Shown here: piece by piece, positions 3,289 to 32,731 of the stretch
Position numbering within the stretch: the first letter of the stretch is position 1
Layout of the letters: each line of letters opens with the position of its first letter
From: Wenjunlia tyrosinilytica
GTDB taxonomy: Bacteria; Actinomycetota; Actinomycetes; Streptomycetales; Streptomycetaceae
Reading direction: 5' to 3'
Assembly (NCBI RefSeq): GCF_014646055.1
Contig: NZ_BMMS01000043.1
Location: 1 to 40,607, forward strand
Length of the DNA stretch: 40,607 nt
Notes under the pieces: generated by a model
Told to the model about the DNA's origin: nothing
Database searches by the model: none
What the model saw: the letters and a program-made list of their open reading frames with translations, nothing else
Translations under genes and position numbers: made by a program

Positions 3289-3332
3289 CGCCGCGTTCGC
3301 TCTCTTCGGCCGGAAGGGGTGGTGCGCGTGCT

Positions 3333-4626: not shown

Positions 4627-4630
4627 CAAG

Positions 4631-4828
4631 CTAGCCGCCCAGGTCGATGCCGTTGGCCTTGGCGGTGACCTTGGCGACGATGATGCCCACCACGGTCAGG
4701 CCCAGGATGGCCAGCAGGGCGGTGACGACGATGGTCTCGGTGGTGTAGCCCGCGTCGGAGCGGGCGTGCCGGCGCACTTCGGCCAGGTGGGCGCGTACCA
4801 GGTGAGTCAGGGCGGCGAGTGGGAGCAT
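4631..4828 (-). CDS. Flp-like major pilin candidate
   Basis: A 65-residue protein. A basic N-terminal part of about 25 residues is followed by DAGYTTETIVVTALLAILGL and a single membrane helix, ending in KANGIDLGG. Size, position between the TadC platform gene and the TadE-like genes, and the G-x-x-x-E-hydrophobic pattern all fit a Flp-type prepilin. The Glu stands at +4 after Gly rather than the usual +5, so the processing site may be shifted. I infer that it is the main fibre subunit. It is the smallest gene of the operon and could be the most highly translated. Confidence 0.75.
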   Translation of the reverse strand: MLPLAALTHLVRAHLAEVRRHARSDAGYTTETIVVTALLAILGLTVVGIIVAKVTAKANGIDLGG

Positions 4829-4879
4829 GACGGTGCTCTTTCCTTGGGGTCTGGTGCGGTTGATGGGTTGATGGGAGCG

Positions 4880-5779: not shown

Positions 5780-6690
5780 CGTGTGCCTCCCGGTTTGGTG
5801 CCCGCCGCAGCGTGGGAGGCGGCCGGGCTGATGAGGCGGACCGGTTCCTCGATGCGGCCGATCGCGGTCAGGTAGGTGAAGGCGGCGGCGAACAGCAGGC
5901 CCACCACCGCGAGGACCGCTTGCCCGGTGAGTGTGTTGAAGGGATCGAGATAGGGGCGGTTGAGGACCACGAGCCCCACCGCCATGCCCAGGGTGACGAT
6001 CACCGTGACGCGCACTGCGGTGCGCACGCTGGCCCGTCCGGCGTCGATGCGCCGGCGCATGGCCACCTGCTCGCGCACCGACTCCGCCAGCTCACCCAGC
6101 AGCGGCGCGAGTTGACTGGCCTGCTGCTCGGCCGCCATGACCAGAGCGGCCACCACCACATCGGCCAGCGGGTCATCGACGTCCTCGGCGAACGCCCTCA
6201 GTGCGGCAGGCAGCGGACGCCCCGACCTGACGGCGAGGGCCAGCTCCCGCATGTCCGGCTCGAGCGCGCCCGTGGCGATGTCCGCGGTCGCGAGCACCGC
6301 CTGCTCCAGTCCGGCCGCTGCGGACAGGGTGTCGCGCAGCATCTCCGTCCAGGTGGCCAGCGCCTCCATGCGTTCCGTGCGCCGTGCGGCCTGTCGGTCC
6401 GGGCCCAGCAGACCGGGAAGGGTGAGCATGGCGACGGTGGTCAGCACCGCCGCCACCGGCCACGTCGTCAGCGCCCCGGCGATCACCCCGGCCGTCACCG
6501 CGATCACCACGCGCCGCGTGGTCCACTCCCGGGGCAGGCGCGCCGACAGCGCACGCAACGGGCCGGGGCGCTCCTGCGGCGCCGTGCGCCGCACGGCTCC
6601 GTAGCCGATGGCCACCATGCCGAGACCGAACACCGTCCCGCACACCACCGCGGCCGCCGTCCACACGCCGTGGCCGAACAGGCCGCTCAC
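5776..6690 (-). CDS. tadB: Type II secretion F-family protein, TadB-like
   Basis: A 304-residue membrane protein with two N-terminal helices, a central cytoplasmic T2SF domain (LRDTLSAAAGLEQAVLATA, AALVMAAEQQASQLAPLLGEL, then EQVAMRRRIDAGRASVRTAV) and two C-terminal helices. It pairs with the TadC-like protein as the platform of the pilus machine. The GTG at 6690 overlaps the TadA stop by 4 nt (GTGA), so I prefer it to the GTG pair at 6708, which would extend 22 nt into TadA. Confidence 0.88.
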   Translation of the reverse strand: MSGLFGHGVWTAAAVVCGTVFGLGMVAIGYGAVRRTAPQERPGPLRALSARLPREWTTRRVVIAVTAGVIAGALTTWPVAAVLTTVAMLTLPGLLGPDRQAARRTERMEALATWTEMLRDTLSAAAGLEQAVLATADIATGALEPDMRELALAVRSGRPLPAALRAFAEDVDDPLADVVVAALVMAAEQQASQLAPLLGELAESVREQVAMRRRIDAGRASVRTAVRVTVIVTLGMAVGLVVLNRPYLDPFNTLTGQAVLAVVGLLFAAAFTYLTAIGRIEEPVRLISPAASHAAAGTKPGGTR

Positions 6691-8036
6691 TGCGCCGCCC
6701 CCCACCACTGGGAAACGGCGCCCTGGGCGTCGAGCCCCGCCGCCGCCAGGTCGTCGAGGGTCTCGCTGCGCAGCGGGGTGGCAGGCGTGGCGCGTCCGTC
6801 GGGGCCGGGCCGGTAGACCTCGTTGGAGACGATCTGCGGCCCGTCCGCGTCGATGACCTCGCGCACCGAGTCGATCACCCGGCGGCCTGCGGTGTCCCAG
6901 CCCAGGTGGACGACGAAGTGGACCGCGGAGGCCACCATCAGGTTCGTCGCCTCCAAAGTGAGCCGTTCCGGGGACTGCGCGGCATAGGAGGCGAGCTTGG
7001 TGAACACCCCGCGCGAGGTGGAGGCGTGGATGGTGGACAGCGAGCCGTCATTGCCCTGACTCATGGCGTTGCACATCGGGATGACCTCGGCCCCGCGGAT
7101 CTCTCCGACGATGACGCGGTCCGGAGACATACGAAGCCCCCAGCGCACCAGTTCCGCCTGGTCGATGCCGCCCTGGCCCTCGATGTTCGGCTCCCGTGCC
7201 TGCATGGCCACCACGTTCGGGTGCGCCACAGGGTCGGTGTCCAGGCCGAGTTCGAAGGTGTCCTCGATGGTCACCAGCCGCTCGGCCGGGGGGATCTCGT
7301 GGGCGAAGGCCCGCAGCACGGTGGTCTTGCCGACATTGGTGCCGCCGCCGATGACGATGTTCTTGCGCGCCCGCACCAGCGCTGTCAAAAACGCGGCGAG
7401 CTGCCCGTCGCACACGCCCAGCCGCACCAGCTCACTCATCGAGGCCGCTGGGAAACGGTGGCGGCGGATCGTCAGCGACACCCGGCCGGTCACCGCCATC
7501 ACCGCGAACAGACGCGAGCCGTCCGGCAGCTGCAGGTTCAAACGGGGCATGCCGCGGTCGAAGCGCCGCTCCTCCCCGCCCGCGTGAGCCGCCAGCGTGC
7601 GGACCAACTCGACCAGTTCCTCGTCCGAGGCGGCCACCGGGCCCTCCCGGCGCCATGCGCCGGCCGCGTCCTTGACCCACACCACGTCGCAGCCGTTGAC
7701 GCAGATGTTCTCCACCGCTGTGTCGGCCAGCAGCCGCTCCAGGCCGCCGGTGCCGAACAGCGCGTCCTCCACCGCCTGGGCGATCCGCTCCTCGGCCGCG
7801 GCATCAACGACCGCCCTGCCCTGGGCCAGCGCCAGCCGCCGCTGCTCCCCCAGCTCCTCGGCCACCAGCCGTCCCACGGTCATCCGCCGCGCCATCTCAT
7901 CCTCCGCGGCCAATCCGGCCGCCTCGCGCTCACCGGCGTACGACGCCAGCCGGGAGGCCACGCGCCGGCGCACCCACACCCCCAGCTCCCGCTCACCGCC
8001 GGGCACCGCATCCGGCAGCAACAGCCGCTCGCTCAT
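6687..8036 (-). CDS. tadA: TadA/CpaF-type secretion ATPase
   Basis: A 449-residue hexameric motor ATPase candidate for pilus assembly. Residues 1-200 form the N-terminal domains (ENICVNGCDVVWV near 110, then the RRFDRG-LNLQLPDGSRL segment). Walker A is GGGTNVGKTT at about 230-239. An Asp/Glu box (IEDTFELGLD), Walker B region (MSPDRVIVGEIRGAE) and His box (LSTIHASTSRG) follow in the expected order. All catalytic motifs look intact. The start overlaps the CpaE-like stop by 4 nt. It powers pilin polymerisation through the TadB/TadC platform. Confidence 0.95.
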   Translation of the reverse strand: MSERLLLPDAVPGGERELGVWVRRRVASRLASYAGEREAAGLAAEDEMARRMTVGRLVAEELGEQRRLALAQGRAVVDAAAEERIAQAVEDALFGTGGLERLLADTAVENICVNGCDVVWVKDAAGAWRREGPVAASDEELVELVRTLAAHAGGEERRFDRGMPRLNLQLPDGSRLFAVMAVTGRVSLTIRRHRFPAASMSELVRLGVCDGQLAAFLTALVRARKNIVIGGGTNVGKTTVLRAFAHEIPPAERLVTIEDTFELGLDTDPVAHPNVVAMQAREPNIEGQGGIDQAELVRWGLRMSPDRVIVGEIRGAEVIPMCNAMSQGNDGSLSTIHASTSRGVFTKLASYAAQSPERLTLEATNLMVASAVHFVVHLGWDTAGRRVIDSVREVIDADGPQIVSNEVYRPGPDGRATPATPLRSETLDDLAAAGLDAQGAVSQWWGAAQ

Positions 8037-13241: not shown

Positions 13242-14756
13242 TTGGCCGGTGTGAAGAGCAAAGAGGAGATCATGGAGATACTTGAGGCGTACGACCTCAC
13301 GGGCAGTTACCGTGCGGCGGCCGAGCTGGCCGGGTGCGACCACCACACCGTGAAGCGGTATGTCGAGCTTCGCGACCAGGGTGGGGACGCGACGAAGCGC
13401 CTGCCGCGGCCGAAGATGATCGACGACTATCTGTCGAAGGTCGAGGAACTGATCGAACGCTCCGGCGGCCGAATCGGGGCTGACCGGGTGCACGACAAGA
13501 TAAAGGCGATGGGCTTCACCGGCACCGACCGGACCACGCGGCGGGCGGTCGCCGCGGCGAAGGCGTCCTATCGCGCCGGCCACCGCCGGGTATTTCGACC
13601 GTGGATTCCAGAACCTGGACTCTGGGTCCAATGGGATTGGGGCGACGGCCCGAAAATAGCAGGCCGGAAAACATGGCTGTGGTGTGCCTGGCTGGCCTGG
13701 TCGAGGTTCCGATTCGTGGTCCCCGTGCTCGACAAAACCCTGCCGACCATCGCGAGTTGTCTGGATGCAACGCTGCGGCAGATCGGAGGAGCCCCGACCT
13801 ATGCGCTGACCGACAACGAGCGGACGGTCACCAGCGACCATATCGCGCGAATACCGGTCCGTAATCCGCAGATCATCGAGATCGGCCATCACTACGGCCT
13901 GACGATCCGCACCTGCGTCCCCGCGGATCCGCAGTCCAAGGGCGGCTCCGAGGCGACGGTGCGGATCGCGAAACGTGACCTGGTGCCCACCGATATCAAC
14001 TTGCGGCCGGCCTATCGGGACTTCGCGGAACTCGAGGACGCCTGCCGCCAGTTCACCACGGACGTGAACAACAAGGTCCACCGAGCAACCCGACGCCGGC
14101 CGATCGAGGCGCTCGCGGAAGAGCAGCATCGCCTGCACCGGCTGCCGGAGAATCCGTTCACCGCGGCCCTGGGCACCACCCGCAAGGTCGCAGGCGACGC
14201 GACGATCTCGGTGGATTCGGTGCGGTATTCGGTCCCGCACCAGCTGGCTGGGCAGACCGTCTGGGCCCGCATCCACGGCGACGAACTCGTCGTCACCGCG
14301 GTCACCGAGGACGGCGCCGCCGAGGCCGCCCGCCACCGACGGTCCACCCCGGGCAACCCGTCGATCAAGGACGAGCACTATCCGCCACGGGAAGATAAGG
14401 CAGGTGAACGGACCCCGAAGGCTGCATCGGCCGAGGAAGCCGCGTTCTTGCAGCTCAGTTCCGGGGCGGCGTCCTGGCTGGTCGAGGCCGCGGCCTCAGG
14501 GGCCCGCAGGATGCGGCCGAAGATGGCCGAGGCCGTCCAGCTTGCCAAGCTCCACGGGGCCGGCGAGGTCGACCGGGCCCTGGGGACCGCGGCGATCGCC
14601 GGCCGATTCGCCGAGAACGACCTCATCTCGATCCTCGATCACCACATCGGACGTCAGGTTGCTGAGCCGACCCGCGCCTCCGAGGACCACAGCCTCCAGC
14701 CGGGCACGTCCGCCTGGTCCCGATTCGGCGTTGCCCCTGAAGGAGACGAAACCTGA
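13242..14756 (+). CDS. istA: IS21-family transposase IstA
   Basis: A 504-residue transposase. An N-terminal HTH (SYRAAAELAGCDHHTVKRYV) precedes the rve-type DDE catalytic domain: Asp in WVQWDWGDG (about 127), Asp in ALTDNERTV (about 188) and Glu in KGGSEATVRIAK (about 225). The C-terminal part has the usual beta-rich region (ISVDSVRYSVPHQLAG). No frameshift is seen and length is normal for IstA. The start codon lies just inside the left terminal repeat. The stop overlaps the istB start as TGATG, which suggests coupled translation. Confidence 0.93.
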   Translation: MAGVKSKEEIMEILEAYDLTGSYRAAAELAGCDHHTVKRYVELRDQGGDATKRLPRPKMIDDYLSKVEELIERSGGRIGADRVHDKIKAMGFTGTDRTTRRAVAAAKASYRAGHRRVFRPWIPEPGLWVQWDWGDGPKIAGRKTWLWCAWLAWSRFRFVVPVLDKTLPTIASCLDATLRQIGGAPTYALTDNERTVTSDHIARIPVRNPQIIEIGHHYGLTIRTCVPADPQSKGGSEATVRIAKRDLVPTDINLRPAYRDFAELEDACRQFTTDVNNKVHRATRRRPIEALAEEQHRLHRLPENPFTAALGTTRKVAGDATISVDSVRYSVPHQLAGQTVWARIHGDELVVTAVTEDGAAEAARHRRSTPGNPSIKDEHYPPREDKAGERTPKAASAEEAAFLQLSSGAASWLVEAAASGARRMRPKMAEAVQLAKLHGAGEVDRALGTAAIAGRFAENDLISILDHHIGRQVAEPTRASEDHSLQPGTSAWSRFGVAPEGDET

Positions 14757-21101: not shown

Positions 21102-21192
21102 CCCCACACGGCGAATTCGACGGGGAGGACTGCCGTGCACGCCCTTGCGGATCCTCTCCATCGCGAAGCGCCCTCGCGTCGGCGGGGAGGAT
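21102..21192 (-). CRISPR. Degenerate two-repeat CRISPR remnant downstream of cas2
   Basis: Read on the minus strand, the repeat at 21164-21192 matches the main-array repeat at 24 of 29 bases. The repeat at 21102-21130 keeps only its 5' GTCCTCCCC and scattered bases (18 of 29). The spacer between (21131-21163) is 33 nt. The orientation follows the cas operon, so read-through from cas2 would transcribe it. The first hairpin has a C-A mismatch and the second has lost its hairpin, so it is probably a relic array. I found no convincing AAG-flanked target for its spacer in the window. Confidence 0.7.
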
Positions 21193-21540: not shown

Positions 21541-22539
21541 TCAGTCTGCCTCTCGGGCGTAGTTGACCCCTGCGGGCAGGACCCCGGCCTCCGGATCCCA
21601 TAGGTGGACCATGCGGACATCTTGTCGTTCGGAGCGTTCCTCGTCTCCTTCGCCGTCCGCGGCATCGGGGGTGAGGAGGGCCTGGACGTCGCGGATGATG
21701 CGGGGCATGAGGCGTACGAGGCGAAGTTCCGCGCGAAAGGTGCGGCGGGCCTCCTGCTCGGGGTTGGCGGACTGGTGGAGGGAGAAGGCGAGCGGGAGCG
21801 TGATGTGCGCCTTGTACAGGTCGGCGACGTCGTACACGAAGGCGTGCTGGGTGCCGGCGTGGACGAAGCCGAGGGCGGGCGAGCAGCCCAGGGCGAGGAG
21901 GGCGGCGTGCACGACGCCGTACAGGCAGGTGTTGGCGGCGGACAGAGCGAGGTTGACCGGGTCCTGGGCGTGCCACTGGTCGGGGTGGTAGTTGCGTCGG
22001 AAGCGTTCGATGCCGTGCTGCTGGGCGAGGATGCGGTAGAGGGCCTTCATGCGCTGGCCTTCCATGCCGCGCAGTTGTGCGAGGGTCGTGCCGTCGGGTA
22101 GGTCGGCGTCGTCGAAGCGCTTGAGGTACATACGGGCGGCGACGTCGAGCCGCCGCTTGGGGTCGGCCCACGCGGTGACCTGCTGTTCGAGCCAGTGAGT
22201 GGTGAGGGAGTCGGGGAGGATGCCGGCGTAGGCGCGCACCGCCCCGGCCCCGGTGCACAGGACGCTGGTACCGTGGCGGGCCACAGTCGCCAGGGCACGG
22301 GTGGTGATGGAGACGCCGGGGCCGAGTAGGAGGCAGGAGATGGCGGCCGTGGGGATGTAAACGGTATCGGTGCGTTCCCCGTCGACCTCGATGCGGGCGC
22401 ATACGCCGGTGTCGTCCTGCACGATGCGGACCATGTCCAGGTAGAGGAAGGACAGCGAGTCGGCGACTCGGGGGAGCATGGCGAGTGTGGGGGCGGCGAG
22501 CCGTGCGCGGGCGTCGCCGCTCTTGCGGGGTGCGCTCAT
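21541..22539 (-). CDS. cas1: Cas1 integrase (type I-E)
   Basis: A 332-residue protein. Metal-binding residues are in place: Glu160 (RGMEGQRMK), His227 (GFVHAGT), Asp237 and Asp240 (YDVADLYK). Their spacing is identical to E. coli Cas1 (E141, H208, D218, D221), with a constant offset of 19. The extra length is a charged C-terminal tail (DGEGDEERSERQD onward). With Cas2 it inserts new spacers next to the leader. The start overlaps the cas6e stop by 4 nt. All residues for activity are present. Confidence 0.97.
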   Translation of the reverse strand: MSAPRKSGDARARLAAPTLAMLPRVADSLSFLYLDMVRIVQDDTGVCARIEVDGERTDTVYIPTAAISCLLLGPGVSITTRALATVARHGTSVLCTGAGAVRAYAGILPDSLTTHWLEQQVTAWADPKRRLDVAARMYLKRFDDADLPDGTTLAQLRGMEGQRMKALYRILAQQHGIERFRRNYHPDQWHAQDPVNLALSAANTCLYGVVHAALLALGCSPALGFVHAGTQHAFVYDVADLYKAHITLPLAFSLHQSANPEQEARRTFRAELRLVRLMPRIIRDVQALLTPDAADGEGDEERSERQDVRMVHLWDPEAGVLPAGVNYAREAD

Positions 22540-23192
22540 GCGGTGTGTGCGGGGGCGAGGCTGAGCAGCCCGGCGCCGTAGGCCTTGCCGCGTCCGATTC
22601 CCGACAGCAGGGCTTCGGTGAGTGCGGCGGGGTCGGTGACGGTGGCGGTACCGTCGAAGCGCAGGAGGCTGTGGCGCATGCCGGATGCGTCAGTCGTGCG
22701 CGAGAGCACCGCCGGGACGGCCGCCGGTGTGAGGGTGTGCAGTTCGAGCCCGGCGTCCGCCGCGCGCCGGATCCACCACTGGTCGGCGTCGGCCCCGGTC
22801 AGCGGGACGATGCGCCCGCGCTGATCCTTGCGCTCCAAGGGCAGGCGTTCCCGCTTCACCGGGTTGACGACGATGCGGTACCGGACTCCGAGGCCCTTGC
22901 GCAGGGCGGTGAACATCGGCGTCAGATCACGGGTCTGGGTCCGGCCGTACCGGTCGGGCAGCCGTGAGGTGTCCAGGACGTTGGATGCCTGGACCATGAG
23001 GATGGTGCCGTGCTCCACGGTGTCAAGGCGGTAGAGCATGCCGGTGATCCGGCGGGCCTGTGGGCCGAGGCCGTCGGGGACCATCCGCATGAGTGTCTTG
23101 TGCATCTGGTTGGCGTCCCGCAGGTCCCGCTGCACCGCACGGTCTTGCAGGTTGAGGTCGATGCGGGCCAGGAATGCCCGAGGCTGGTTCAT
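22536..23192 (-). CDS. cas6e: Cas6e (CasE) crRNA endoribonuclease
   Basis: A 218-residue RNase that cuts the repeat hairpin and stays bound to it in Cascade. The catalytic His is likely His31 (DANQMHKTLMRMVPDGLG). The C-terminal Gly-rich loop is SGIGRGKAYGAGLLSLAP, typical of Cas6e. It should recognise the CCCCGC-loop-GCGGGG stem of the repeats here. It overlaps cas5e and cas1 by 4 nt on either side. Confidence 0.95.
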   Translation of the reverse strand: MNQPRAFLARIDLNLQDRAVQRDLRDANQMHKTLMRMVPDGLGPQARRITGMLYRLDTVEHGTILMVQASNVLDTSRLPDRYGRTQTRDLTPMFTALRKGLGVRYRIVVNPVKRERLPLERKDQRGRIVPLTGADADQWWIRRAADAGLELHTLTPAAVPAVLSRTTDASGMRHSLLRFDGTATVTDPAALTEALLSGIGRGKAYGAGLLSLAPAHTA

Positions 23193-24043
23193 GCGGCCGT
23201 GTCCTCCGTGGCGTAGTCCATGAGCCGCTGGCGCAAGGTGCGAGGCTGGTCCTCGTGCGGGACGTCGGTGTTCTGCGTCCGCTGGCGGCCATTCTCCTGG
23301 GGAAGCAGGGTCGCGGACAGGTGCTCCACGGTGCGGTACAGGGTGCGCTTCCTGTGGCTGCGGTGGTGCTGGGCGAAGCTGACGGGGGTGTCGTTGGCGG
23401 AGAGGACGACGGTGTCCTCGGCTGCGGTGGTGGGCAGGCGCTCCCAGTAGAAAGTCACCGGGACCGTCCGGTCCGCGCCGGTGCGGTCAGGGCTGCGGCC
23501 GTGGTCGTCGCCAGGGCTGAGTGGTACGTGCTCGCGCAGTTCCGCGGCGGGGTCCTGGACGCAGGTGCGCAGCAGGAACGGCTCGTCCGGTGGGCACGAA
23601 CGGCGTCCGAGGTAGGGCGCCCAGTGCGGTTGGCGCAGTGCGGCGGCGATGCGGTCAAGGGTGTCGTCGGGGCCGGTGACGGCGACGACGAACACCGCGT
23701 CCGCGAGGTAGTGGCGCCGGGTGATGACGGCGTCGCCCTTGTGCTTGCCGCCGCTGGTGGCGGCTGTGAGCTGGTCGGGCAATCCGCCGCCGACGGTGTG
23801 GAAGTCGGAGAGCAAGGTGCCGGGCCGGTCCACGCGCACGGTGAACCCCAGGTCGGCATAGACCTCACGGCCTGCCTCGTCGGCTGCAAGCGCATGTAGC
23901 CGGCTGCGGCCCTCTGCGGCGGCGAACATTCCGATAAGGCCAGATCGGGTGGGAAACGCGGCGGTGTCCCGGACTGCGGTGAAGGCGGATCGCTCTCCCC
24001 AGGACTGGAGCGGTCCGGCAAGCCGGAGCAGCAGTGCGCTCAC
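23189..24043 (-). CDS. cas5e: Cas5e (CasD) Cascade subunit
   Basis: A 284-residue RAMP protein beginning SALLLRLAGPLQSWGERSAF, the characteristic Cas5e N-terminus, then TRSGLIGMFAAAEGR. It binds the 5' handle of the crRNA and the base of the Cas7 backbone. The C-terminal part has an acidic/Arg-rich extension (NTDVPHEDQPRTLRQRL). Both ends overlap the neighbouring genes by 4 nt, which indicates a polycistronic, coupled operon. Confidence 0.94.
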   Translation of the reverse strand: MSALLLRLAGPLQSWGERSAFTAVRDTAAFPTRSGLIGMFAAAEGRSRLHALAADEAGREVYADLGFTVRVDRPGTLLSDFHTVGGGLPDQLTAATSGGKHKGDAVITRRHYLADAVFVVAVTGPDDTLDRIAAALRQPHWAPYLGRRSCPPDEPFLLRTCVQDPAAELREHVPLSPGDDHGRSPDRTGADRTVPVTFYWERLPTTAAEDTVVLSANDTPVSFAQHHRSHRKRTLYRTVEHLSATLLPQENGRQRTQNTDVPHEDQPRTLRQRLMDYATEDTAA

Positions 24044-25167
24044 TGCGCGTTCCCCGGCGTCGGGAGGGCGGCATCGACGGCCGCGTCGATCAGTTCGCAG
24101 AAGGAGTCGTTAGGGTCTCCGAGTGACCCGAAGGTGTCGGTGCCGACGGTGGCGTGGCCGTGGAAGGGACGGTTACGGTTGCCGGTGAGGCGGTTGATGT
24201 CGCGGGCGTAGGCGGCCAGCGCCTCGCGGGAGGGACCGGAAAATCCACCGGCGCGGTCGGCGGAGACAGGTGTTTCGAAGGCGGCGGCCATCGACACGGG
24301 CCTCTGGTGCCGCACAGCCAGATAGGCGAGATCGGGGACGGTGTGCGGCGCGGTGCTGTTCCGCTTGGCCTGGGGGAGCGACATCAAGAACTGGTCCGCG
24401 AAGGAGGCGAGCACGGTGCGGGCGGCCTTGTGGTCGCCATCGAGGTTCTTCAGCAGGTCGGTAACGTTGACGGACGCGAAGCGGTAGAAGACCCCGGCGC
24501 CGAACTCGGCGGTGTTGAGATGGCCGCTACCGGTCTCCTCGGCTGGCAGCCAGTCGTCCACTGCGGTGAAATAGTCCCGCTGCGGCTCGGCAGCGTGAGT
24601 GGTGAAGGCATGCGCCACCTGGGCAGCGCCGTCCACGTTGCCGCCGGGGAGCTCCGCGAGCATCCGGCCCAGAAGACTGATGGAAGCGGTACGCCGCTTG
24701 AGGATCTGCTCGATGCGGTCGGCGGGCAGCAGCGCACCTGGGTTCTTCTTCCCCAGGCCTTTCTCCAATGCGTCCCGGTGCTCCAGGCACACAGCGCTGA
24801 GGTCGTCGATGCCGCCTTCGGGCAGGAACAGCAGGACGGATGTGTGTCCCCCATTTTCCGTTTTGAGGGCCTTCTTCACGCTCGCGCTCGCAGCGACCTG
24901 AGCACCGGCGAACTCGGCCAGCTCCACCGGCCAGCCCTCCCGCTCCAGGGCGTGCCGGACCTTGACGGGCACCAAGCGAGTACGGGCGGCCCTCTCCCCC
25001 AGGTCCGCCTCGACGCCATGCCGGATGACCCGCTTCCACGACTGACTAGAGACCCGCAACCGCAAGGCGTTCCCGTACTTGACGATCTTGGGCGAGCCCA
25101 GGTCGTCCCGGTTCAGATTCGCCACAGGGACGGACTGGATCGCGTTGAAATCGGCAAAGACGGACAT
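24040..25167 (-). CDS. cas7e: Cas7e (CasC/Cse4) Cascade backbone subunit
   Basis: A 375-residue protein with the family pattern DFNAIQSVPVANLNRDDLGS and VSSQSWKRVIRHGVEADLGE near the N-terminus, and FYRFASVNVTDLL and NRNRPFHGHATVGTDTFGSL later. Six copies normally coat the crRNA spacer; every sixth base of the guide is flipped out by the Cas7 thumbs. That matters for the mini-array target described at 27819-27854. The start shares one base with the cse2 stop (TGATG). Confidence 0.96.
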   Translation of the reverse strand: MSVFADFNAIQSVPVANLNRDDLGSPKIVKYGNALRLRVSSQSWKRVIRHGVEADLGERAARTRLVPVKVRHALEREGWPVELAEFAGAQVAASASVKKALKTENGGHTSVLLFLPEGGIDDLSAVCLEHRDALEKGLGKKNPGALLPADRIEQILKRRTASISLLGRMLAELPGGNVDGAAQVAHAFTTHAAEPQRDYFTAVDDWLPAEETGSGHLNTAEFGAGVFYRFASVNVTDLLKNLDGDHKAARTVLASFADQFLMSLPQAKRNSTAPHTVPDLAYLAVRHQRPVSMAAAFETPVSADRAGGFSGPSREALAAYARDINRLTGNRNRPFHGHATVGTDTFGSLGDPNDSFCELIDAAVDAALPTPGNAQ

Positions 25168-25811
25168 CAGTTGGTCTCCTCGGGGGCGTCGGTGTCGATG
25201 CTGGGGGTGTCGGCACGATCATCAAAGGTGCGGACACGGAAGTAGCTCTCCAGCCAGCGGGTTGCGATCCGGTCCCGGTCGTAGTTCCACCAGGTCAGGT
25301 CCTCCAGCAGCACCGCCCAGTCGACTGCGACGCCGTGCCCTTGGAGGTACCTGGCCATAGAGGGCAGGCGGGGGTGGATGGCCTCGGTATTCTGACGTGC
25401 CATCAGGTGCAAGTCCGACTCTGCAGTGCTGGGTTTGAACAGCTTCTTGTTCACGCCGGTGGCCAGTGAGGCACCCAAGTTGGGGCGCTTCCACCAATCC
25501 AGTGCAGGCACCGCGACGGCATCGGCCGAACGCGCAGCATCAGCGTCGCGCGCGGCGCGCGGCCTGTCGGCGATCAGAGCCGCTACGGCGTAATGAGCAC
25601 GCTTCGCATCCGGGTGCAGGTCCTCGGACAGGCGGGGAACGAGGTACCGGTGGAGCCGATTGCAGCGCTCCACCGGCAACCCGCGCCCGCTGCGCAGATC
25701 CGCCCGAACCCCCTTGTCCCGCTCGCACAGACCGAGGACGTAGCGCACGAACGCCTCGGAATGCCTCTCCTCGGCTGGGGTCTGCGCGGAGGGCGTGGGT
25801 GACGTAGTCAT
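25167..25811 (-). CDS. cse2: Cse2 (CasB) Cascade small subunit
   Basis: A 214-residue, helical, Arg-rich protein (SEAFVRYVLGLCERDKGVRA, GLPVERCNRLHRYLVPRLSE, LLEDLTWWNYDRDRIATRWL). It forms the inner belly of Cascade and stabilises the R-loop. The ATG at 25811 has GGGAG five bases upstream; a longer frame from 25835 runs through a tandem repeat and is not used. Unlike the other Cascade genes it is separated from its upstream neighbour (cse1) by 71 bp holding short tandem repeats. Confidence 0.93.
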   Translation of the reverse strand: MTTSPTPSAQTPAEERHSEAFVRYVLGLCERDKGVRADLRSGRGLPVERCNRLHRYLVPRLSEDLHPDAKRAHYAVAALIADRPRAARDADAARSADAVAVPALDWWKRPNLGASLATGVNKKLFKPSTAESDLHLMARQNTEAIHPRLPSMARYLQGHGVAVDWAVLLEDLTWWNYDRDRIATRWLESYFRVRTFDDRADTPSIDTDAPEETN

Positions 25812-25820
25812 GAAAACTCC

Positions 25821-25855
25821 CTGGGGCACTGGCACTGGGCACTGGGCACTGGCAC
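25821..25855. repeat. Short CACTGG(G) tandem repeat between cse1 and cse2
   Basis: Four copies of a GGCACTGG/GGGCACTG unit of 6-7 bp lie immediately upstream of the cse2 ribosome binding site. Slipped-strand mispairing here would change the distance between cse1 and cse2 and possibly coupling, but would not change any reading frame. Confidence 0.8.
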
Positions 25856-25882: not shown

Positions 25883-27463
25883 TCAGCGGCCGGCCGAGCG
25901 GGGTATGGCCGCGCGGATGCAGCGGCGGGCGCGGCTGCGGGCGCGGGCCGTGCGCACATCCGCCCGCACTGCGCCGATCGCCGAGTCCAACGCATCAAGG
26001 GCGGCATCGACGAAGGGCTGATGGGGCGGGGTGTCGCACCGTTCAGGAGTGACAAGCCCCCAGAAGACCAACCCGGCCACCGGCCAGTACTGGGCAAGAG
26101 CGCGGTCCCGCCAGGGCCCGGGCCTCTTGGCGTCCAGCCGCACCTTCTCCGCGTCTTCCTGCCCGGGGTCGGTGGCAAGCTTCCAGGCCAACCGGGCGGC
26201 GTACTCAAGCATGCCGCCGACCTCGTCGGCGGCCTGACGGCACTGCCCCACATACAGAGCCATCCGCTCGTCCACCTCCTGCTGCCAGCGCAGGACCGGC
26301 GGGGTGCTCGCCTCGAACCAGCCGCTGTCGCGCTGCTGCCCGTCCTGATCGAACCCGTAGGCCCGCACCCTGAGCACGGGCAGCAGCGCACGCGGCAGGT
26401 TCTCCAGGGCGTAGGGCCGCTTGGACTGGCCGTCGTGGTCCTTCAAGAGCAGTGCATCCAGGTCACGCCACAAAGCGCGTCGACCGTCGGCCGGGCGTGG
26501 GAATCGGGTGCCGTCACCGGACTTGGGCGGGTCGAGGATCACGTACGGGTCGGAGGCAGCCTGGGCAGGGGCGTGGGTTGACCAGGTCACAAACGCGTCG
26601 GTGACGGTGGCGTGGTCGGCGGAGGGTGCAAGCAGAACGGCATGGCGGGCGCGGCCGGTCAGCAGCCGCCCAGGCCAGGTGACCTTCGGCAGCGGACCGA
26701 GCGGGTTGAGCAGCTCCTCCATCTCCCAGGGGCACCGGTCCTCCTCGTCGGGCTCCGCGCCGCTCCCGCCGGGGACCGGCACCGACAGCACAAGCGTGGT
26801 GAACAGATCCGGCGCCCAGGGGTGGAAGGAGACGGTCTTGCGCAGGGGGCCCGCATCTCCGCTGCCCGGCCGCACGGAGGTGATCCGGCGCGGGGTGCAC
26901 TGCCCGGACGGGCCGTAGTACAGCTGGGCGATCAGATGCCAGGCAGCCTCCGCAGGAGAGACCGGCACCGGGTCGGTATCCATGAAGTGGCCGAATAAGA
27001 CGGCGCCATTGACGCCTGTGGGCCGTCCGAAAACCAGCTTGTTCACACCCGAGGAGTTCGGTTTCCCCTTGGCGTCCAGGCACTCCTTGTCCAGTCGCGG
27101 GTCCTGCAGGAAGGGGCGGTCGCCGAACAGATCGAAGCGGCCCTCGGGCACCTCACGGTCGAGGTAGGCGTCCACGGCCGAGGCATCGAAGCACCGCCGC
27201 GCCAAGACCCTGTCACGCGCATGGCGCCACTTCCTGACGTTCTCGGCCAGGTCCATGTCGTCCAGGCGCTCTTCGTCGTTACGGGCGACGCGCGCGGTAA
27301 TGGCCGCAAGGATCCGTAGCAGCCCGGACGCCGCCGGCGGCACCGGCAACTCCAGATCCTCGATTTCGTGCGCTCGATGTAAAAGCTCCCGGAGCCCCAC
27401 CCGCATAGACCGGCCCCCCAGGCGTACGGGAATCCACGACTCATCCCGCAGGTCAAACCCCAA
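25883..27463 (-). CDS. cse1: Cse1 (CasA/Cas8e) Cascade large subunit
   Basis: A 526-residue protein that recognises the PAM and recruits Cas3. Its beginning GFDLRDESWIPVRLGGRSMR is the standard Cse1 entry. Later segments are LFGDRPFLQDPRL, KLVFGRPTGVNGAVLFGHFM (near the L1/PAM-reading region) and the helical bundle at the end (MALYVGQCRQAADEVGGMLE). The start is the TTG at 27463, preceded by CAGGAGGGGAATC; no ATG or GTG fits the family N-terminus. A longer frame to 27577 contains Arg-rich shadow sequence. The gene starts the Cascade operon; the mini-array and cas3 lie farther upstream. Confidence 0.94.
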   Translation of the reverse strand: MGFDLRDESWIPVRLGGRSMRVGLRELLHRAHEIEDLELPVPPAASGLLRILAAITARVARNDEERLDDMDLAENVRKWRHARDRVLARRCFDASAVDAYLDREVPEGRFDLFGDRPFLQDPRLDKECLDAKGKPNSSGVNKLVFGRPTGVNGAVLFGHFMDTDPVPVSPAEAAWHLIAQLYYGPSGQCTPRRITSVRPGSGDAGPLRKTVSFHPWAPDLFTTLVLSVPVPGGSGAEPDEEDRCPWEMEELLNPLGPLPKVTWPGRLLTGRARHAVLLAPSADHATVTDAFVTWSTHAPAQAASDPYVILDPPKSGDGTRFPRPADGRRALWRDLDALLLKDHDGQSKRPYALENLPRALLPVLRVRAYGFDQDGQQRDSGWFEASTPPVLRWQQEVDERMALYVGQCRQAADEVGGMLEYAARLAWKLATDPGQEDAEKVRLDAKRPGPWRDRALAQYWPVAGLVFWGLVTPERCDTPPHQPFVDAALDALDSAIGAVRADVRTARARSRARRCIRAAIPRSAGR

Positions 27464-27818
27464 GATTCCCCTCCTGAACCGGTCCCGAAGCGCCGTGCGA
27501 TGGCAGCCTCCAGCACCCCCACGGTCTCCCTGCGGGGAGTGGCGATGGTCACACAGTGAAGCAGGGCCCACTGACAACGCACATGCATTTCAGCCACGCC
27601 ACAAGGCTCACAGCCGCGGCGCACCTGGTTCTCAGAGCGCTGCACCGACTCCGCCCACGCCCTCTTCGAGTGGAACACCCCCGCACCCCACGAGAACCAA
27701 AAACGCCGTCCATGACGCGAGCAGCGTCTCACAAGCGACGGGGACAGTGGTGACCAACGGCGTGCCCCCTCGAGAAGAAGCCCTGGAAGCCTCGTGTCGG
27801 CCGTTTCCCACGAGACCG
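27464..27818. other. Region upstream of cse1 without a gene
   Basis: Only shadow ORFs are present on either strand. It must carry the promoter of the cse1-cas2 operon. I see no unambiguous -35/-10 pair on the minus strand. Confidence 0.4.
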
Positions 27819-27854
27819 AAGATGTGTGGGGGACTCGGTGCCCTTGCCAACCCA
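27819..27854 (+). promoter_or_regulatory. Protospacer-like target of the mini-array guide, with AAG PAM
   Basis: AAG at 27819-27821 is followed by 27822-27854, which pairs partially with the mini-array spacer at 28223-28255. The first 17 positions read ATGTGTGGGGGACTCGG here and ATGTGCGGAGGTCTCGG in the spacer. Over positions 1-26, 19 match; mismatches are at 6, 9, 12, 18, 19, 21 and 24, and matching breaks down after 26. Positions 6, 12, 18 and 24 are not base-paired in type I-E Cascade. The site covers the -35 element of the putative plus-strand promoter, so bound Cascade would block transcription there without enough pairing for cleavage. Confidence 0.7.
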
Positions 27855-27873
27855 TTGTCGGCTGGGGTACAAA
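27844..27873 (+). promoter_or_regulatory. Putative promoter of the small plus-strand ORF
   Basis: TTGCCA at 27844-27849 and TACAAA at 27868-27873 are 18 bp apart and resemble a sigma-70/HrdB promoter. They lie 75 bp upstream of the ATG at 27948. The -35 box is inside the protospacer-like site. No experiment supports the start point. Confidence 0.5.
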
Positions 27874-27947
27874 CGTGACGCCCCTTCAGAGGCTCGTCTT
27901 CCAGCTCATCGCTGCGTCCACAAGGCCGAATCAACCGTGGAGTCACC

Positions 27948-28130
27948 ATGCGCGCCCTGCCTGCGCTTCCGGCACATCCCGCATTAGCCGGGGGCACCGA
28001 CCGTACGTTGCCCTGGCTCGTGATCCTCGTCGTTGTTGTGCTGGTGCTCCGACCCGATGCCAACGTCGCCACCACATGTGCAACCATGCTGATCGCAGTG
28101 GTCGAGGCGGTGCGCCGAATGACGAGGTAG
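27948..28130 (+). CDS. Small two-helix membrane peptide, candidate CreT-like toxin
   Basis: A 60-residue ORF with ATG preceded by GGAG at five-base spacing. After a Pro/Ala-rich N-terminus it has two hydrophobic segments (LPWLVILVVVVLVL at about 22-35 and ATTCATMLIAVVEAV at about 41-55), then a basic end RRMTR. Codon 13 is TTA, the rare leucine codon that in Streptomyces depends on the bldA tRNA. The ORF lies antisense to the cas genes, between a guide-matching promoter and the mini-array that encodes the guide. In CreTA modules a small toxin is repressed by a crRNA-like RNA through Cascade; this gene occupies that place. Toxicity is inference. It could instead be an ordinary small membrane protein of unknown role, as similar-looking ones occur in actinobacteria. 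Confidence 0.55.
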   Translation: MRALPALPAHPALAGGTDRTLPWLVILVVVVLVLRPDANVATTCATMLIAVVEAVRRMTR

Positions 28131-28193
28131 TTTCCGGTTCCAGAACTGAGAGGTCGGAGTCACCGTAGCTCCACCCCCCGATGGTCCGCCCTT

Positions 28194-28284
28194 CCTGTCC
28201 CCACCGCTGTGGGGGTGTTCCAATGTGCGGAGGTCTCGGACCGCTCGCGCAAATCGTCTTCCCCGCCGAAGCGGGGGTGCCACT
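28194..28284 (+). CRISPR. Two-repeat degenerate mini-array between cse1 and cas3 (CreA-like RNA candidate)
   Basis: Repeat 1 (28194-28222) differs from the main repeat mainly in its 5' half but keeps the handle GTGTTCCA. Its stem changed from CCCCGC/GCGGGG to CCCCAC/GTGGGG, a compensatory pair that preserves pairing around a CGCT loop. Repeat 2 (28256-28284) keeps its 5' part and a perfect CCCCGC-CGAA-GCGGGG hairpin but its last bases are lost. These are the parts needed to make one mature crRNA by Cas6e: 8-nt handle, 33-nt spacer (28223-28255), 3' hairpin. So the array looks selected for one guide, not simply decayed. A promoter in 28131-28193 or read-through from 27844 could transcribe it. 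Confidence 0.8.
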
Positions 28285-28306
28285 CACGTAGTGCGGGGCC
28301 AGATCA

Positions 28307-31192
28307 TTATCGGCGCACCAACCCCAACTCCGCGTCCAGCCACATCCGCTTGCCTTTCACCTCCACCGCCTGCACTTCGCCGCCGCGTACCGGCTGCCGC
28401 AGCAGCGCCAGGTCGCCGAGCATCGGGTGATCGCTCCAACCGTCCGGGATATTGAAGGTCGCCTCGGCGTCCTTGAACCAGTCGGCCCGCACCGGAATGG
28501 TCCGCCTCATCACCGCGCGGACATCGTTCACGGCGATCCGGCCGTCACTATCCGGGGTGGGCAAGGCGTAGTTTCCTTCCTCGTCCAGGGTCTCACTCCC
28601 GTCCTCCTGCATGTAGACGCACAGTAGCCGGACCGCGTCAGCGCCGAGGCGGGTGGCGATCTGCCACTCGCCCTCAACTCCCAGGGAATGCAGGCTGTGC
28701 AGCTCGTCGACAGAGCCGACACGCGGGACGGCAATTGACTCGCCCATGCCCCGTTGCGCGAGGTTCTCGCCCTCGAACTCCACCCACGCCTTCTCCCTGC
28801 GAGGGCTGTCCCAGTCGAAGCGGTCGGAGCGGTCGCCGTGCACCTTCTCCACCAGCGCCTGGACATCGTCCGGGATGTTGATCGGACCCGGCCCCAGGCC
28901 CGCTAGCACCTCGGAGGTCTCCAGCAGGAGGTGTTCGGCATAGACAGAGCCCCAGTGTTTCGGTACCTGCCCACCCCCGGCCAGAAGCGGATCAAGGACG
29001 ACCAGCCTCGGCCCGGTGCAGGCCGCCCACGCCGGACGCGGCTTGCCGCCGGGCCGTCCGTGCTGCGCCCACCACACCTCGTGGCGCCAGCACCGCCCGG
29101 CCCGCTGAAGCAGCAGCGCCAGCGGGGCAAGATCGCTGACCACAAGATCGGCATCGAGGTCAAGGGACTGCTCGACCACCTGGGTCGCCACGACCACCAT
29201 GCGTCCGAGGCGCCGACCGGGACGTCCCATGCCCTGCGAGACCAGCCGGGTCCGCCCCTCCCGCACATCGCCGGGAAACCGCGCGTGCAGCAGCACCAAT
29301 TCCACCTCGCCCAACCCTCGGGCCGCACAGCGGTCCCTCAGCCAGGTGTAGGTGTCCTGCGCCTCGCCCACCGTGTTGCAGACCACCAGCGCGTACCCGC
29401 CCACCTCGCCACCACATTCCAAGAGCAGCGGTTCCAGGACGCACTCGATCACCGCGAGCCTGGCCCGCTCCCCGCCCTTTCCCAAAGGTGTGTGCACAAC
29501 CGACTCCACCTGGACCGCCAGCTCCATGCGCCGCTGCGCGGCCTGATCCTGCCGATCCGGCTCACCGATCCGCTCGCATCTCGCGGTGGCCGCGTCCACG
29601 TAGAGCCATCCCGGGTACGGAACCTCGAACGAACGCCGCTTCAGCTCACGGACAGAATGCTTCCCGACACCTCTGAGGTACTCCTTGACCAGCCGGTCGC
29701 TCACCGAGACCGGAAGTGTCGCGGACAACAGGACCACCGGCACCCCATACGCTCCCAGCCAGTTCAGCAGCCGTCCCAACAGGACCTGCATGTACGGGTC
29801 GTAGGCATGCGCCTCATCGACGATGCACGTCTTGCCGGACAGTGCCAGAAGCCTCAACGCGTTGTGCCGAATCGGCAGCACGGCCATCAGCGCCTGATCG
29901 ATCGTTCCCACAGTCCACTGCGCCAGCAGCGGCCGCTTCCCGCCCCGCAGCCACTGCCGGGGCCGCATCGCAGCCTGATGACGCGCCGCCGTGTCCCCCT
30001 CCTCCTCGCCATCACACACCAGCACCGCTGGCCCCCCGCTCAACTCGCCGTCCGAGTAGGCACTGTTCAACCAGGCCATGCTGTGCGTCAGCGTCAGCCC
30101 CGCGCCCGCCGCCCCCTGACGGTCCAAAACACCCGCGACGCGGGCGTGCATCGGGTCGCTCGTGGCCATCGTCGGCAGCAGGAACGCAAACCCCCGCGTA
30201 CCACACACCTGCGACAGCAACCGCTCGGCCTCCAATGCCGTCTCGCTCTTGCCGTCCCCAGGCGCGGCAGTGACCACCAGGATGCCAGCCTTCCCTGCCT
30301 CCGGGACTGCCAACGCCTCGGCCAGCCCTCGCGCGACCGACCGCTGCAGCGGATTCGGCTCACCCTTAATGTCGTACGCCTCCGCGAAATCCTTGCGTGC
30401 CAGCTCCACCGGCACCAGACCCGCCTCCCGCACCAGCTCTACAGCGTCTCGGCATGACTTCTCAAAGTGTTCCTGCAGCGAGGGCCGAAGGGCGTGCTGG
30501 CGCCGTTCGAGATAAGACTCCTGGCTCACCAGCCAGTCCGCAAGGATCACCAAGCCCGTCACCAGCACCGCCGCCGACGCTTCGAAACGCTCGGGCAACG
30601 GCGGCACACCCAGCAGATCGTGCACCGCGGCCGCGTGCACTGCCCTTTGATCAGCCCACTTCAGGCCGCCGAACAACTCCTGATAGCCAGCAAGATCGGT
30701 CATGCCCCGGTTGAGCCGGGAAAAGACACCGTGGTGCCCCCCGATGATCTCCGCAACCCGGTCAACCCCCTCGTCCTCCGCCATGCCGGTGTCCCCAAGC
30801 CCGAGCGCAGCAAGCACCGCGGGAGCCGCCTGCATCCCCGCGACGGCATGCCCGATACGTGTCGTCCCGAGCCTTTCCCCCTGGTCCCGGACGAACTCCC
30901 GGCTCAGCCCCTCCTTTCCCCGGGCATCGCACAATTGGAACCCCGACAGCTTCCCGATGTCATGAAGCCCGGCACACAGGGCAACCAGCACACGTGCCTG
31001 CGCAGGATCTGCCTCAGCCCCGAGCCCCACTGCGATGCTCCTACGCTGGTTCCCGGAGAGGTAGTGATCCCACAGATACAGGGCCATAGCCGCCGCATCC
31101 AGCAGATGCCGCACCAGCGGATACGGCCGATCAAGCCCTCGGGACTTCCCCCACGCCGACTCGTCCACCGCCCGCCCCGGCCTACGCATCAC
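28307..31192 (-). CDS. cas3: Cas3 nuclease-helicase
   Basis: A 961-residue effector nuclease. The HD domain has His29, the LHDIGK motif (His77-Asp78), GGHHG at about 151-155 and ILADW near 216. The SF2 helicase has Walker A APGDGKSE (about 310-317), the DEAH box (VDEAHAYDPYM, 459-462) and motif III LLSATLP; helicase domain 2 includes VVVATQVVEQSLDLDADLVV and QRAGRCWRH. All catalytic motifs are present. A GTG (31192) and ATG (31189) are adjacent; AGGAGGGG lies 7-10 bases upstream. It is transcribed away from the main array and is separated from cse1 by about 840 bp holding the plus-strand module. Confidence 0.97.
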   Translation of the reverse strand: MMRRPGRAVDESAWGKSRGLDRPYPLVRHLLDAAAMALYLWDHYLSGNQRRSIAVGLGAEADPAQARVLVALCAGLHDIGKLSGFQLCDARGKEGLSREFVRDQGERLGTTRIGHAVAGMQAAPAVLAALGLGDTGMAEDEGVDRVAEIIGGHHGVFSRLNRGMTDLAGYQELFGGLKWADQRAVHAAAVHDLLGVPPLPERFEASAAVLVTGLVILADWLVSQESYLERRQHALRPSLQEHFEKSCRDAVELVREAGLVPVELARKDFAEAYDIKGEPNPLQRSVARGLAEALAVPEAGKAGILVVTAAPGDGKSETALEAERLLSQVCGTRGFAFLLPTMATSDPMHARVAGVLDRQGAAGAGLTLTHSMAWLNSAYSDGELSGGPAVLVCDGEEEGDTAARHQAAMRPRQWLRGGKRPLLAQWTVGTIDQALMAVLPIRHNALRLLALSGKTCIVDEAHAYDPYMQVLLGRLLNWLGAYGVPVVLLSATLPVSVSDRLVKEYLRGVGKHSVRELKRRSFEVPYPGWLYVDAATARCERIGEPDRQDQAAQRRMELAVQVESVVHTPLGKGGERARLAVIECVLEPLLLECGGEVGGYALVVCNTVGEAQDTYTWLRDRCAARGLGEVELVLLHARFPGDVREGRTRLVSQGMGRPGRRLGRMVVVATQVVEQSLDLDADLVVSDLAPLALLLQRAGRCWRHEVWWAQHGRPGGKPRPAWAACTGPRLVVLDPLLAGGGQVPKHWGSVYAEHLLLETSEVLAGLGPGPINIPDDVQALVEKVHGDRSDRFDWDSPRREKAWVEFEGENLAQRGMGESIAVPRVGSVDELHSLHSLGVEGEWQIATRLGADAVRLLCVYMQEDGSETLDEEGNYALPTPDSDGRIAVNDVRAVMRRTIPVRADWFKDAEATFNIPDGWSDHPMLGDLALLRQPVRGGEVQAVEVKGKRMWLDAELGLVRR

Positions 31193-31360: not shown

Positions 31361-32731
31361 GTCCTCCCCGCCGACGCGGGGGTGTTCCGGCATCCCCCGG
31401 AGACGTCGCCCATGCCATGGGGTCCTCCCCGCCGACGCGGGGGTGTTCCGTACCGGGCGAGGCCGGGCAGGGAGTCGGGTCCGTCCTCCCCGCCGACGCG
31501 GGGGTGTTCCGAACAGCGCCAGCACGGCGACCGGGGTCTGAGTGTCCTCCCCGCCGACGCGGGGGTGTTCCGCCCCACGTGAGCGGCACCTCCAATATCG
31601 AGTGGTCCTCCCCGCCGACGCGGGGGTGTTCCGCCGTAACCCCACCATCAGGAGCCCGCGCCATGGTCCTCCCCGCCGACGCGGGGGTGTTCCGTCCGCG
31701 GCAGAGCTGGTCCGTACCCAGTTGGCGTCCTCCCCGCCGACGCGGGGGTGTTCCGGTCGAGAACGAATGCGACGGCAGAGCCTGGCAGTCCTCCCCGCCG
31801 ACGCGGGGGTGTTCCGTCGCCGTAGGCGACTTAATGGCCACGCTGCCCGTCCTCCCCGCCGACGCGGGGGTGTTCCGCGTGACGGTTCGAAAAGCTGAGG
31901 GTAGGGAAAGTCCTCCCCGCCGACGCGGGGGTGTTCCGTACGCCGATGCCGGGCACGTCCACCCGGGGCCGTCCTCCCCGCCGACGCGGGGGTGTTCCGT
32001 CCCGGATGCGGACCCGCTCCGGCAACGCCGGGTCCTCCCCGCCGACGCGGGGGTGTTCCGCGAGACCAGCTCATACGCAACCTGTGCACGCCGTCCTCCC
32101 CGCCGACGCGGGGGTGTTCCGGCCCACGGCATCACCATCGTCCCGGTCTACGCGTCCTCCCCGCCGACGCGGGGGTGTTCCGTGATCGAGTTCGGTGCCG
32201 GGACGGCGCAGGACGTCCTCCCCGCCGACGCGGGGGTGTTCCGCCCTCACCGTCGTCCTCGCCGCGCTGATCGACGTCCTCCCCGCCGACGCGGGGGTGT
32301 TCCGACCGACCAGGCCGCCAGGGGCGCCAAGTCCACGTCCTCCCCGCCGACGCGGGGGTGTTCCGTTGTACAGGTAGATCTCCAGGCCGGGCACCCGGTC
32401 CTCCCCGCCGACGCGGGGGTGTTCCGTCACGGGCGGACTCCGATCCACGTGGTGAGCAGTCCTCCCCGCCGATGCGGGGGTGTTCCGCCCTGGTCCCCAA
32501 GGCCGCCCTGGCGGGCAAGGTCCTCCCCGCCGACGCGGGGGTGTTCCGCTACGGCGCGACATCGACGACGCCGCATCGGCGTCCTCCCCGCCGACGCTGG
32601 GGTGTTCCGCGGTCCCCCGACCCGGCGGCCTATGATCACGCGTCCTCCCCGCCGACGCGAGGGTGTTCCGAACCGGCCCGTCCTGCGCGTCACGGACCCC
32701 GGGTCCTCCCCGCCGACGCGGGGGTGTCCCG
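31361..32731 (+). CRISPR. Type I-E CRISPR array, 23 repeats and 22 spacers
   Basis: 29-bp repeats start every 61 bp from 31361 to 32703, so every spacer is 32 nt. The repeat begins GTCCTCCCC, forms the hairpin CCCCGC-CGAC-GCGGGG and ends GTGTTCCG. Variants lie at the right end: C to T in the hairpin loop at repeat 19 (32459), G to T at repeat 21 (32581), G to A at repeat 22 (32642) and T to C at repeat 23 (32703). This marks the right as the old, leader-distal end. Many spacers are open in one or more frames, as expected for phage or plasmid genes. I found no spacer repeated within the array. Confidence 0.98.

Follow-up and report, generated by a model that had tools for sequence, protein, structure and literature searches.

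Toxin-antitoxin (TA) systems regulated by clustered regularly interspaced short palindromic repeat (CRISPR) effectors are a kind already known. In creTA of the archaeon H. hubeiense (type I-B), toxin and guide lie behind one promoter, which is repressed by the mature guide RNA, CreA, together with Cascade. The CreA seed, guide positions 1-5 and 7-11, was established by mutation, and a divergent degeneration of the two repeats is described for creA genes (PMC8501985). In CrePA, the toxin is a protein, CreP, that is repressed by CreA and Cascade, typically carries a KilA-N domain and acts on FtsZ; the cas-regulating RNAs (CreR) instead repress cas (PMC12737573), and are reported for types I-B, I-E and V-A (PMC13131331). 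These descriptions follow sections of the cited reports. The subject here is a mini-array of two degenerate repeats around one spacer (28194-28284) in the type I-E locus of the streptomycete Wenjunlia tyrosinilytica, on a contig of 40,607 nt (NZ_BMMS01000043.1, analysed whole and referred to as the window). The guide of this mini-array matches a nearby target, and a small gene lies between the two. With a probability of about 0.55, they form a CreTA/CrePA-like module in which Cascade, carrying the mini-array RNA, represses a small hydrophobic protein that is probably a toxin.

The window resembles creTA, as far as the sections cited describe it, in its divergently degenerate repeats round one spacer, in seed pairing at positions 1-5 and 7-11 beside a protospacer-adjacent motif (PAM) at a putative promoter, and in its promoter-gene-guide order. 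By contrast, the creTA toxin is an RNA that traps transfer RNA (tRNA), while the window clade has a conserved, probably membrane, protein of 54-64 residues in a streptomycete type I-E system. A protein-coding gene that would be repressed by Cascade via a CreA-like guide is shared with CrePA; unlike CreP, the protein of the window clade is short and hydrophobic and is not matched in NCBIfam or PADLOC, nor credibly in Pfam. A mini-CRISPR within a cas locus and a partial promoter match recall CreR as described, and suit relatives with another layout, whereas the target of the window clade lies at the putative promoter of the small gene and not beside a cas -10 box. TisB, Hok and Fst are hydrophobic peptides of type I TA systems. 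As in those systems, a small hydrophobic protein would be silenced by RNA, except that control would be exerted by a CRISPR effector on DNA rather than by antisense pairing to mRNA. No earlier report of a hydrophobic-protein or actinobacterial version was found in searches of an open-access library, and the present version is apparently unreported.

A guide and its target in the cas3-cas8e gap

Between cas3 and cas8e lies a gap of about 850 nt, in which the mini-array occupies the plus strand, antisense to the cas genes. Its 33-nt spacer, the guide (28223-28255, plus strand), matches by its seed an AAG-flanked site at 27822; the target, or protospacer, spans 27822-27854 and its PAM 27819-27821, both on the plus strand. 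Every sixth base, which is unread by type I Cascade, was skipped when the window was scanned for spacer matches, and this site is the best match outside the spacer itself, 400 nt away in the same gap. Pairing holds at 14 of the 15 bases in positions 1-5, 7-11 and 13-17. Among the first 18 positions the mismatches fall at 6, 9, 12 and 18, of which 6 and 12 are not read by Cascade; nine of the ten seed bases therefore pair, a seed match of the creA type with its mismatch at position 9. An AAG site of this quality is expected by chance about 1.3e-6 times per 729 bp and 0.015 times genome-wide. A pattern derived from the site matches perfectly nowhere else in the 8.49-Mb genome, which shows uniqueness only.

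A search for cas8e in 394 genomes of the family gave 66 at E <=1e-20, its own genome included, and 70 loci were fetched (L numbers here and below denote loci). With the window these make 71 gaps, 30 of which gave two degenerate repeats while 41 did not; three of the 41 (L105, L108, L110) carry longer runs of repeats and were excluded by hand. An AAG site matching at least nine of the ten seed bases occurs in the same gap as the guide for 25 of the 30 mini-arrays, the window included, with all ten bases in 21 and the strand always the same. The five without a qualifying site are L061 (14/15, but beside AAT), L074 (14/15, with the repeat call one base off) and L077, L079 and L092, in which no site was found. 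Across the 25 loci, positions 1-5 match in 25, 24, 25, 25 and 25 cases and positions 7-11 in 25, 25, 23, 24 and 25, against 6 at position 6 and 8 at position 12; the match at position 6 is at background level, and from position 17 onward most are near it.

Chance is rejected as the source of these matches by two controls: when guides and gaps were swapped, a score of at least 9 arose in 14 of 870 combinations, every one between loci with similar guides, and 1500 shuffled spacers reached a maximum of 8. Within the window clade, 12 distinct seeds occur among 16 loci, and a swap scores below 9/10 in 221 of 240 cases, the remaining 19 linking loci with similar guides. Possession of a pair was the criterion for choosing the 16, whose own scores therefore give no rate; L164 is identical to L162 in guide and target and was kept out of the swaps, and L130 has a seed match of 8/10. 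The guide sequence thus changes in relatives yet still matches its own gap. A scan made independently of repeats returned AAG pairs in 46 of 109 gaps. Its rule was also satisfied by 23 of 545 shuffles and, when six wrong PAMs were tried, by 7-21 of 109 gaps; because this rule is loose, the conclusions rest on the analyses of the 30 mini-arrays and the 16 clade loci. By the loose rule, guide-target pairs also occur in the cas3-cas8e gap of L143 and L146, from another family of the class. The mini-array element may be older than the family.

The repeats of the mini-array were compared with the consensus of the 23 repeats of the main array (31361-32731). Repeat R1 (28194-28222, plus strand), which would donate the hairpin and 5' handle of the guide, retains 20/29 bases, and repeat R2 (28256-28284, plus strand), the donor of a 3' hairpin whose own handle is lost, retains 23/29. 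R1 deviates at positions 1-4, in stem pair 10/17, where both bases have changed (G-C to A-T), at loop bases 14 and 15 and at position 29, which ends the handle, and R2 at position 4, at loop position 15, at 25-27 and at 29. This is the divergent pair of creA genes, in which R1 keeps hairpin and 5' handle and R2 keeps its hairpin. The original prediction, that the repeats diverge only where a single guide does not need them, is nearly right, the altered last base of the R1 handle being the departure from it. The paired change that it noted in the R1 stem is real, and the described loss of the R2 3' end, with 5' part and hairpin kept, agrees with deviations that lie mostly at 25-27 and 29.

Covariation of the stem, proposed at the same time as a check, is found in the relatives. 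A total of 46 loose-scan loci yielded 35 R1 sequences after removal of seven with a 5-bp stem or on the other strand, of L044 and L045 as repeats of a genome, and of L047 and L130 as spurious, the last of which proved real. Of the 35, 28 share one register (26 distinct) and form the covariation set, while the other seven have different loop sizes. Five of the six stem pairs are changed on both sides, in 22 cells, a result reached by none of 500 shuffles; pair 10/17, flagged in the original prediction, is GC in 13, AU in 7 and GU in 6. As the 28 were partly selected for a 6-bp stem, the figure of 100% pairing is circular; the double changes are informative, though kinship can inflate them. Free decay of the stem in related strains, named beforehand as the outcome that would count against selection, is not seen where a mini-array was found; that search depends on recognisable repeats and left 41 of 71 gaps blank, so that lost or decayed arrays are possible.

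The divergence of the two repeats recurs in 19 loci with a known repeat from their own array, out of the 25 with a matching target; loci without a consensus, and L106 (by hand), were left out. R1 retains 30 of 95 bases in columns 1-5 versus 126 of 152 in the handle, and in columns 25-29 R2 retains 38 of 95 versus 75 of 95 for R1. The 5' flank of R2 is kept at just 40 of 95 bases, so relatives show the R2 half less clearly than the window does. An array reduced to two degenerate repeats and one spacer might be taken for a neutral relic of an older one; covariation between guide and target across many species, together with that of the stem, leads to rejection of this reading, which is left with a vanishingly small probability. 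The earlier claim of selection for one processed guide instead holds, on the strength of stem covariation, of the same divergence in relatives and, above all, of a guide-target match that is kept as the guide changes, and the mini-array is almost certainly a selected guide gene. The target, the small gene and a regulatory function go beyond what the original prediction contained.

The small gene between target and guide

The small open reading frame (ORF), the candidate toxin gene, lies at 27948-28130 on the plus strand and encodes a hydrophobic protein of 60 aa from an ATG preceded by GGAG. Homologs occupy the same place in ten further contig loci: L042, L112, L115, L117, L118, L122, L123, L126 and L128, which with the window make the ten-member set used below, and L130 as an eleventh. 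Counted from the chosen starts, the proteins are 54-64 residues long. They have in common a hydrophobic stretch, a proline motif and a C-terminal helix, and a location in the membrane is predicted. The ratio of nonsynonymous to synonymous substitution rates (dN/dS) is 0.07-0.75, below 1 in all 32 defined pairs of 36 (nine loci, L118 not in the set); judged by these codon substitutions, the gene is protein-coding and under purifying selection. One TTA codon occurs in the small gene of four of the ten loci (window, L042, L112 and L117); in streptomycetes a TTA codon may impose bldA dependence.

In the genomes searched, the gene is found only at this place. A profile of the ten members has three strong matches in the 394 family genomes, all three in the cas3-cas8e gap, and weak partial matches only (E 6.8e-4 or more) in nine other genomes; among the loci scanned with the profile, no strong match lacks a mini-array. 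A plasmid search with the L128 homolog returned four records, and in each of the three that were opened the match lies in the casA-cas3 gap; these three list no gene at the match, in a gene table that is incomplete. Searches of NCBIfam and PADLOC with the ten proteins gave no match, and Pfam gave only DUF3309 (E 0.021) and DUF3188 (E 0.038) at chance level, in one member each. A KilA-N domain, as in CreP, was not matched in any of the ten, and the window protein had no match among phages.

A toxic function of the protein is a reasoned guess, at about even odds. It could alternatively be a non-toxic CRISPR helper, such as a membrane anchor or a regulator, that Cascade keeps at a low level. The lack of a known family, the restriction to this place and purifying selection would all suit a helper. 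However, two copies on linear Streptomyces plasmids, L163 and L164, have an apparently frameshifted ORF with guide and target kept, although a sequencing error is possible; this pattern proves nothing, but such gene loss is the order expected when a toxin goes before its antitoxin and, with the target-gene-guide order, fits a TA system better. A helper is judged unlikely. A toxin acting as RNA, by a transcript that traps a rare tRNA, is suggested by CreT toxins, which the sections cited describe as RNAs. Here, the 54-64 codons are conserved as protein with dN/dS below 1, in place of the tiny rare-codon ORF of the CreT type; the ten ORFs hold AGA twice, ATA once and TTA four times and have no common run of rare codons, though L118 opens with ATG AGG AGA. 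Codon content and dN/dS therefore disfavour the tRNA-trapping RNA toxin, which is very improbable. The alternatives weighed here and below are not mutually exclusive.

The target would control the small gene through its promoter. A putative promoter that reads into the gene, TTGCCA (27844-27849), an 18-nt spacing and TACAAA (27868-27873), lies on the plus strand at 27844-27873 with its -35 element inside the target. Sites of the form TTGNNN-N17/18-TANNNN directed toward the ORF and starting 22-56 nt past the target start are present in eight of ten loci (shuffled mean 1.84, with 0 of 200 shuffles reaching 8), and L130 also carries an ORF-directed site; this relaxed rule was devised after the sites had been viewed and is suggestive rather than independent. 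A stock sigma-70 scan reported no promoter in 27500-28400. Measured from the target in the ten loci, the ORF start is held at 122 +/- 14 nt, versus 201 +/- 61 nt for cas8e. The guide probably acts on the promoter of the small gene. Between the end of the ORF and R1 the distance is 33-67 nt (63 nt in the window), and no TTGNNN/TANNNN site occurs there in any of the ten loci; a single transcript of ORF and mini-array is therefore likely.

The putative cas promoter in the window and its relatives

The layout of the window clade, target, promoter, small gene and mini-array all in one direction and antisense to cas, is distinct from that of most relatives. In 20 of the 25 loci with a matching target (layout 1), the target is found between cas3 and the mini-array; 16 of these 20 carry a TANNNT box in the cas direction that starts 4-6 nt behind the PAM (random places within these gaps give a mean of 0.9 and a maximum of 5/20 in 1000 draws). 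Since the count was made only after the box had been noticed, it is suggestive and not independent. Such a box at the target is what autorepression of cas by a CreR would need, and the layout-1 relatives that have it are CreR-like. Five further layout-1 loci from the loose scan (L053, L081, L095, L143, L146) have no -10 box.

The window itself could likewise hold a CreR, whose guide directs Cascade to the promoter of the cas operon in a self-limiting loop, with the small gene as a bystander or a co-regulated helper. The occurrence of CreRs in type I-E, the boxes of the layout-1 relatives and one in L125, a clade locus with guide and target but without the ORF, are in keeping with this possibility. 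In the ORF loci, however, no cas-direction -10 box stands beside the target in any of the 13 scanned. The putative promoter of the cas8e operon, TTGTCAGTG-N8-TTCACT (27555-27577, minus strand), presumably resembles the RecA-NDp (PafBC) promoter of DNA damage, and cas expression may be tied to such damage; the window target lies about 240 nt upstream of this likely promoter. A relaxed scan finds no cas-direction promoter in ten of ten ORF loci, but it misses the cas motif itself. With the five boxless layout-1 loci and the box noticed before counting also set against it, a CreR in the window appears improbable, on a par with the helper.

In a combined form, one Cascade bound between diverging promoters would repress the small gene and the cas operon as a dual switch. 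The target does lie between the divergent cas8e and small genes, and its start is 34 nt from the cas promoter motif in L112 and 60 nt in L042. The corresponding distance of about 240 nt in the window and a spacing to cas8e that is not kept speak against a dual switch, which is less probable than a CreR alone. The motif in question, TTGTCAG, which may mark the cas promoter, is present in 11/23 clade loci, namely the window and 10 of the 22 others, at 66-127 nt upstream of cas8e.

The clade was assembled by contig scans, the first of which found no relatives and the second 23 named loci. Nine of its loci have neither a guide-target pair nor the ORF (L043, L046, which equals L129, L114, L119, L120, L124, L131, L133 and L134), and the small-protein profile found nothing in these nine. 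Four others (L113, L121, L125 and L127) lack the ORF but possess a guide and its target.

The proposed module and its setting

The type I-E locus around the mini-array comprises cas3, cse1, cse2, cas7, cas5, cas6e, cas1 and cas2, all on the minus strand and matched in Pfam (8/8, with a partial match for cas1). On one side of the gap lies cas3 (28307-31192, minus strand; PF18019, PF22590) and on the other cas8e, or cse1 (25883-27463, minus strand; PF09481, E 1.5e-56), with a likely TTG start near 27463; the remaining Cascade genes, cse2, cas7, cas5 and cas6e, follow at 22536-25835 on the minus strand, with Pfam matches near full length. The main array (31361-32731, plus strand) has 23 repeats of 29 nt with a period of 61. 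Rfam matched nothing within 27400-28400. Outside the module, a lone degenerate repeat near cas2 (21164-21192, minus strand) agrees with the consensus at 24/29 and has one stem pair broken; in a scan of the window, its adjoining 32 nt reach at most 7 of 10 seed matches at AAG sites. With no seed target above 7/10 in the window, it is rejected as a second guide, and the original prediction was right that this remnant lacks the pattern of the mini-array. Beyond the cas genes, the window encodes a protein with a Mu-type transposase C-terminal domain (13242-14756, plus strand) and T2SSE/T2SSF secretion-type proteins with a BTAD/LysM protein (487-8036, minus strand).

In the CreTA/CrePA-like module proposed for the window, cleavage of both repeat hairpins (R1 and R2) by Cas6e would yield a single RNA resembling a CRISPR RNA, which would load Cascade and bring it to the AAG site at 27822-27854. 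Because 14 of 15 informative bases pair and little beyond position 17 does, binding without destruction of the target is expected, as in known CreA cases. The target overlaps the -35 element of the putative promoter, which would drive the 60-aa gene and probably also the mini-array behind it, and Cascade would therefore repress the small gene and tune its own guide. If Cascade were lost or blocked, for example by an anti-CRISPR, the protein would be made and the cell harmed or arrested.

Several observations weigh against this proposal. The mismatch at seed position 9 of the window guide is the main worry: in H. hubeiense CreA, any single change among the ten seed bases is described as costing about 10^4-fold (PMC8501985), and the seed reaches 8 or 9 of 10 in 7 of 11 ORF-bearing contig loci, though many of these pair further at positions 13-17. 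No promoter of the scanned form was found in L112 or L117. Guide and target are paired in L113, L121 and L127 without the ORF and without a cas -10 box at the target; the guide therefore has a use without the small protein. The structure model of the protein, which shows two helices, is of low confidence (predicted local distance difference test, pLDDT, 64), and many pairs have a saturated dS, with no defined value in 4 of 36. The TTGTCAG motif was not seen in L118, L122, L123, L126 and L128, half of the ten ORF loci, which leaves the distance from target to cas promoter undefined there. The proposal is given less weight because of this missing motif and of the five further layout-1 loci without a -10 box.

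Somewhat short of even odds, and put forward tentatively, is the broader view that streptomycete type I-E systems, including those on linear plasmids, carry a third sort of CRISPR-regulated TA system, one in which Cascade with the mini-array guide represses an operon of membrane toxin and guide, while sister lineages use the mini-array to repress cas, so that the element has switched between the roles of immune thermostat and addiction module. Since one clade supplies 12 natural guide-target seeds, CRISPR-guided gene control in Actinobacteria is directly testable. If the proposal is true, a function would be assigned to a small protein family that has no NCBIfam, PADLOC or credible Pfam model. 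Streptomycetes of this kind in which Cascade was lost or inhibited would then free a membrane toxin, which would explain the upkeep of a costly system, on plasmids too, and provide an answer to anti-CRISPR proteins.
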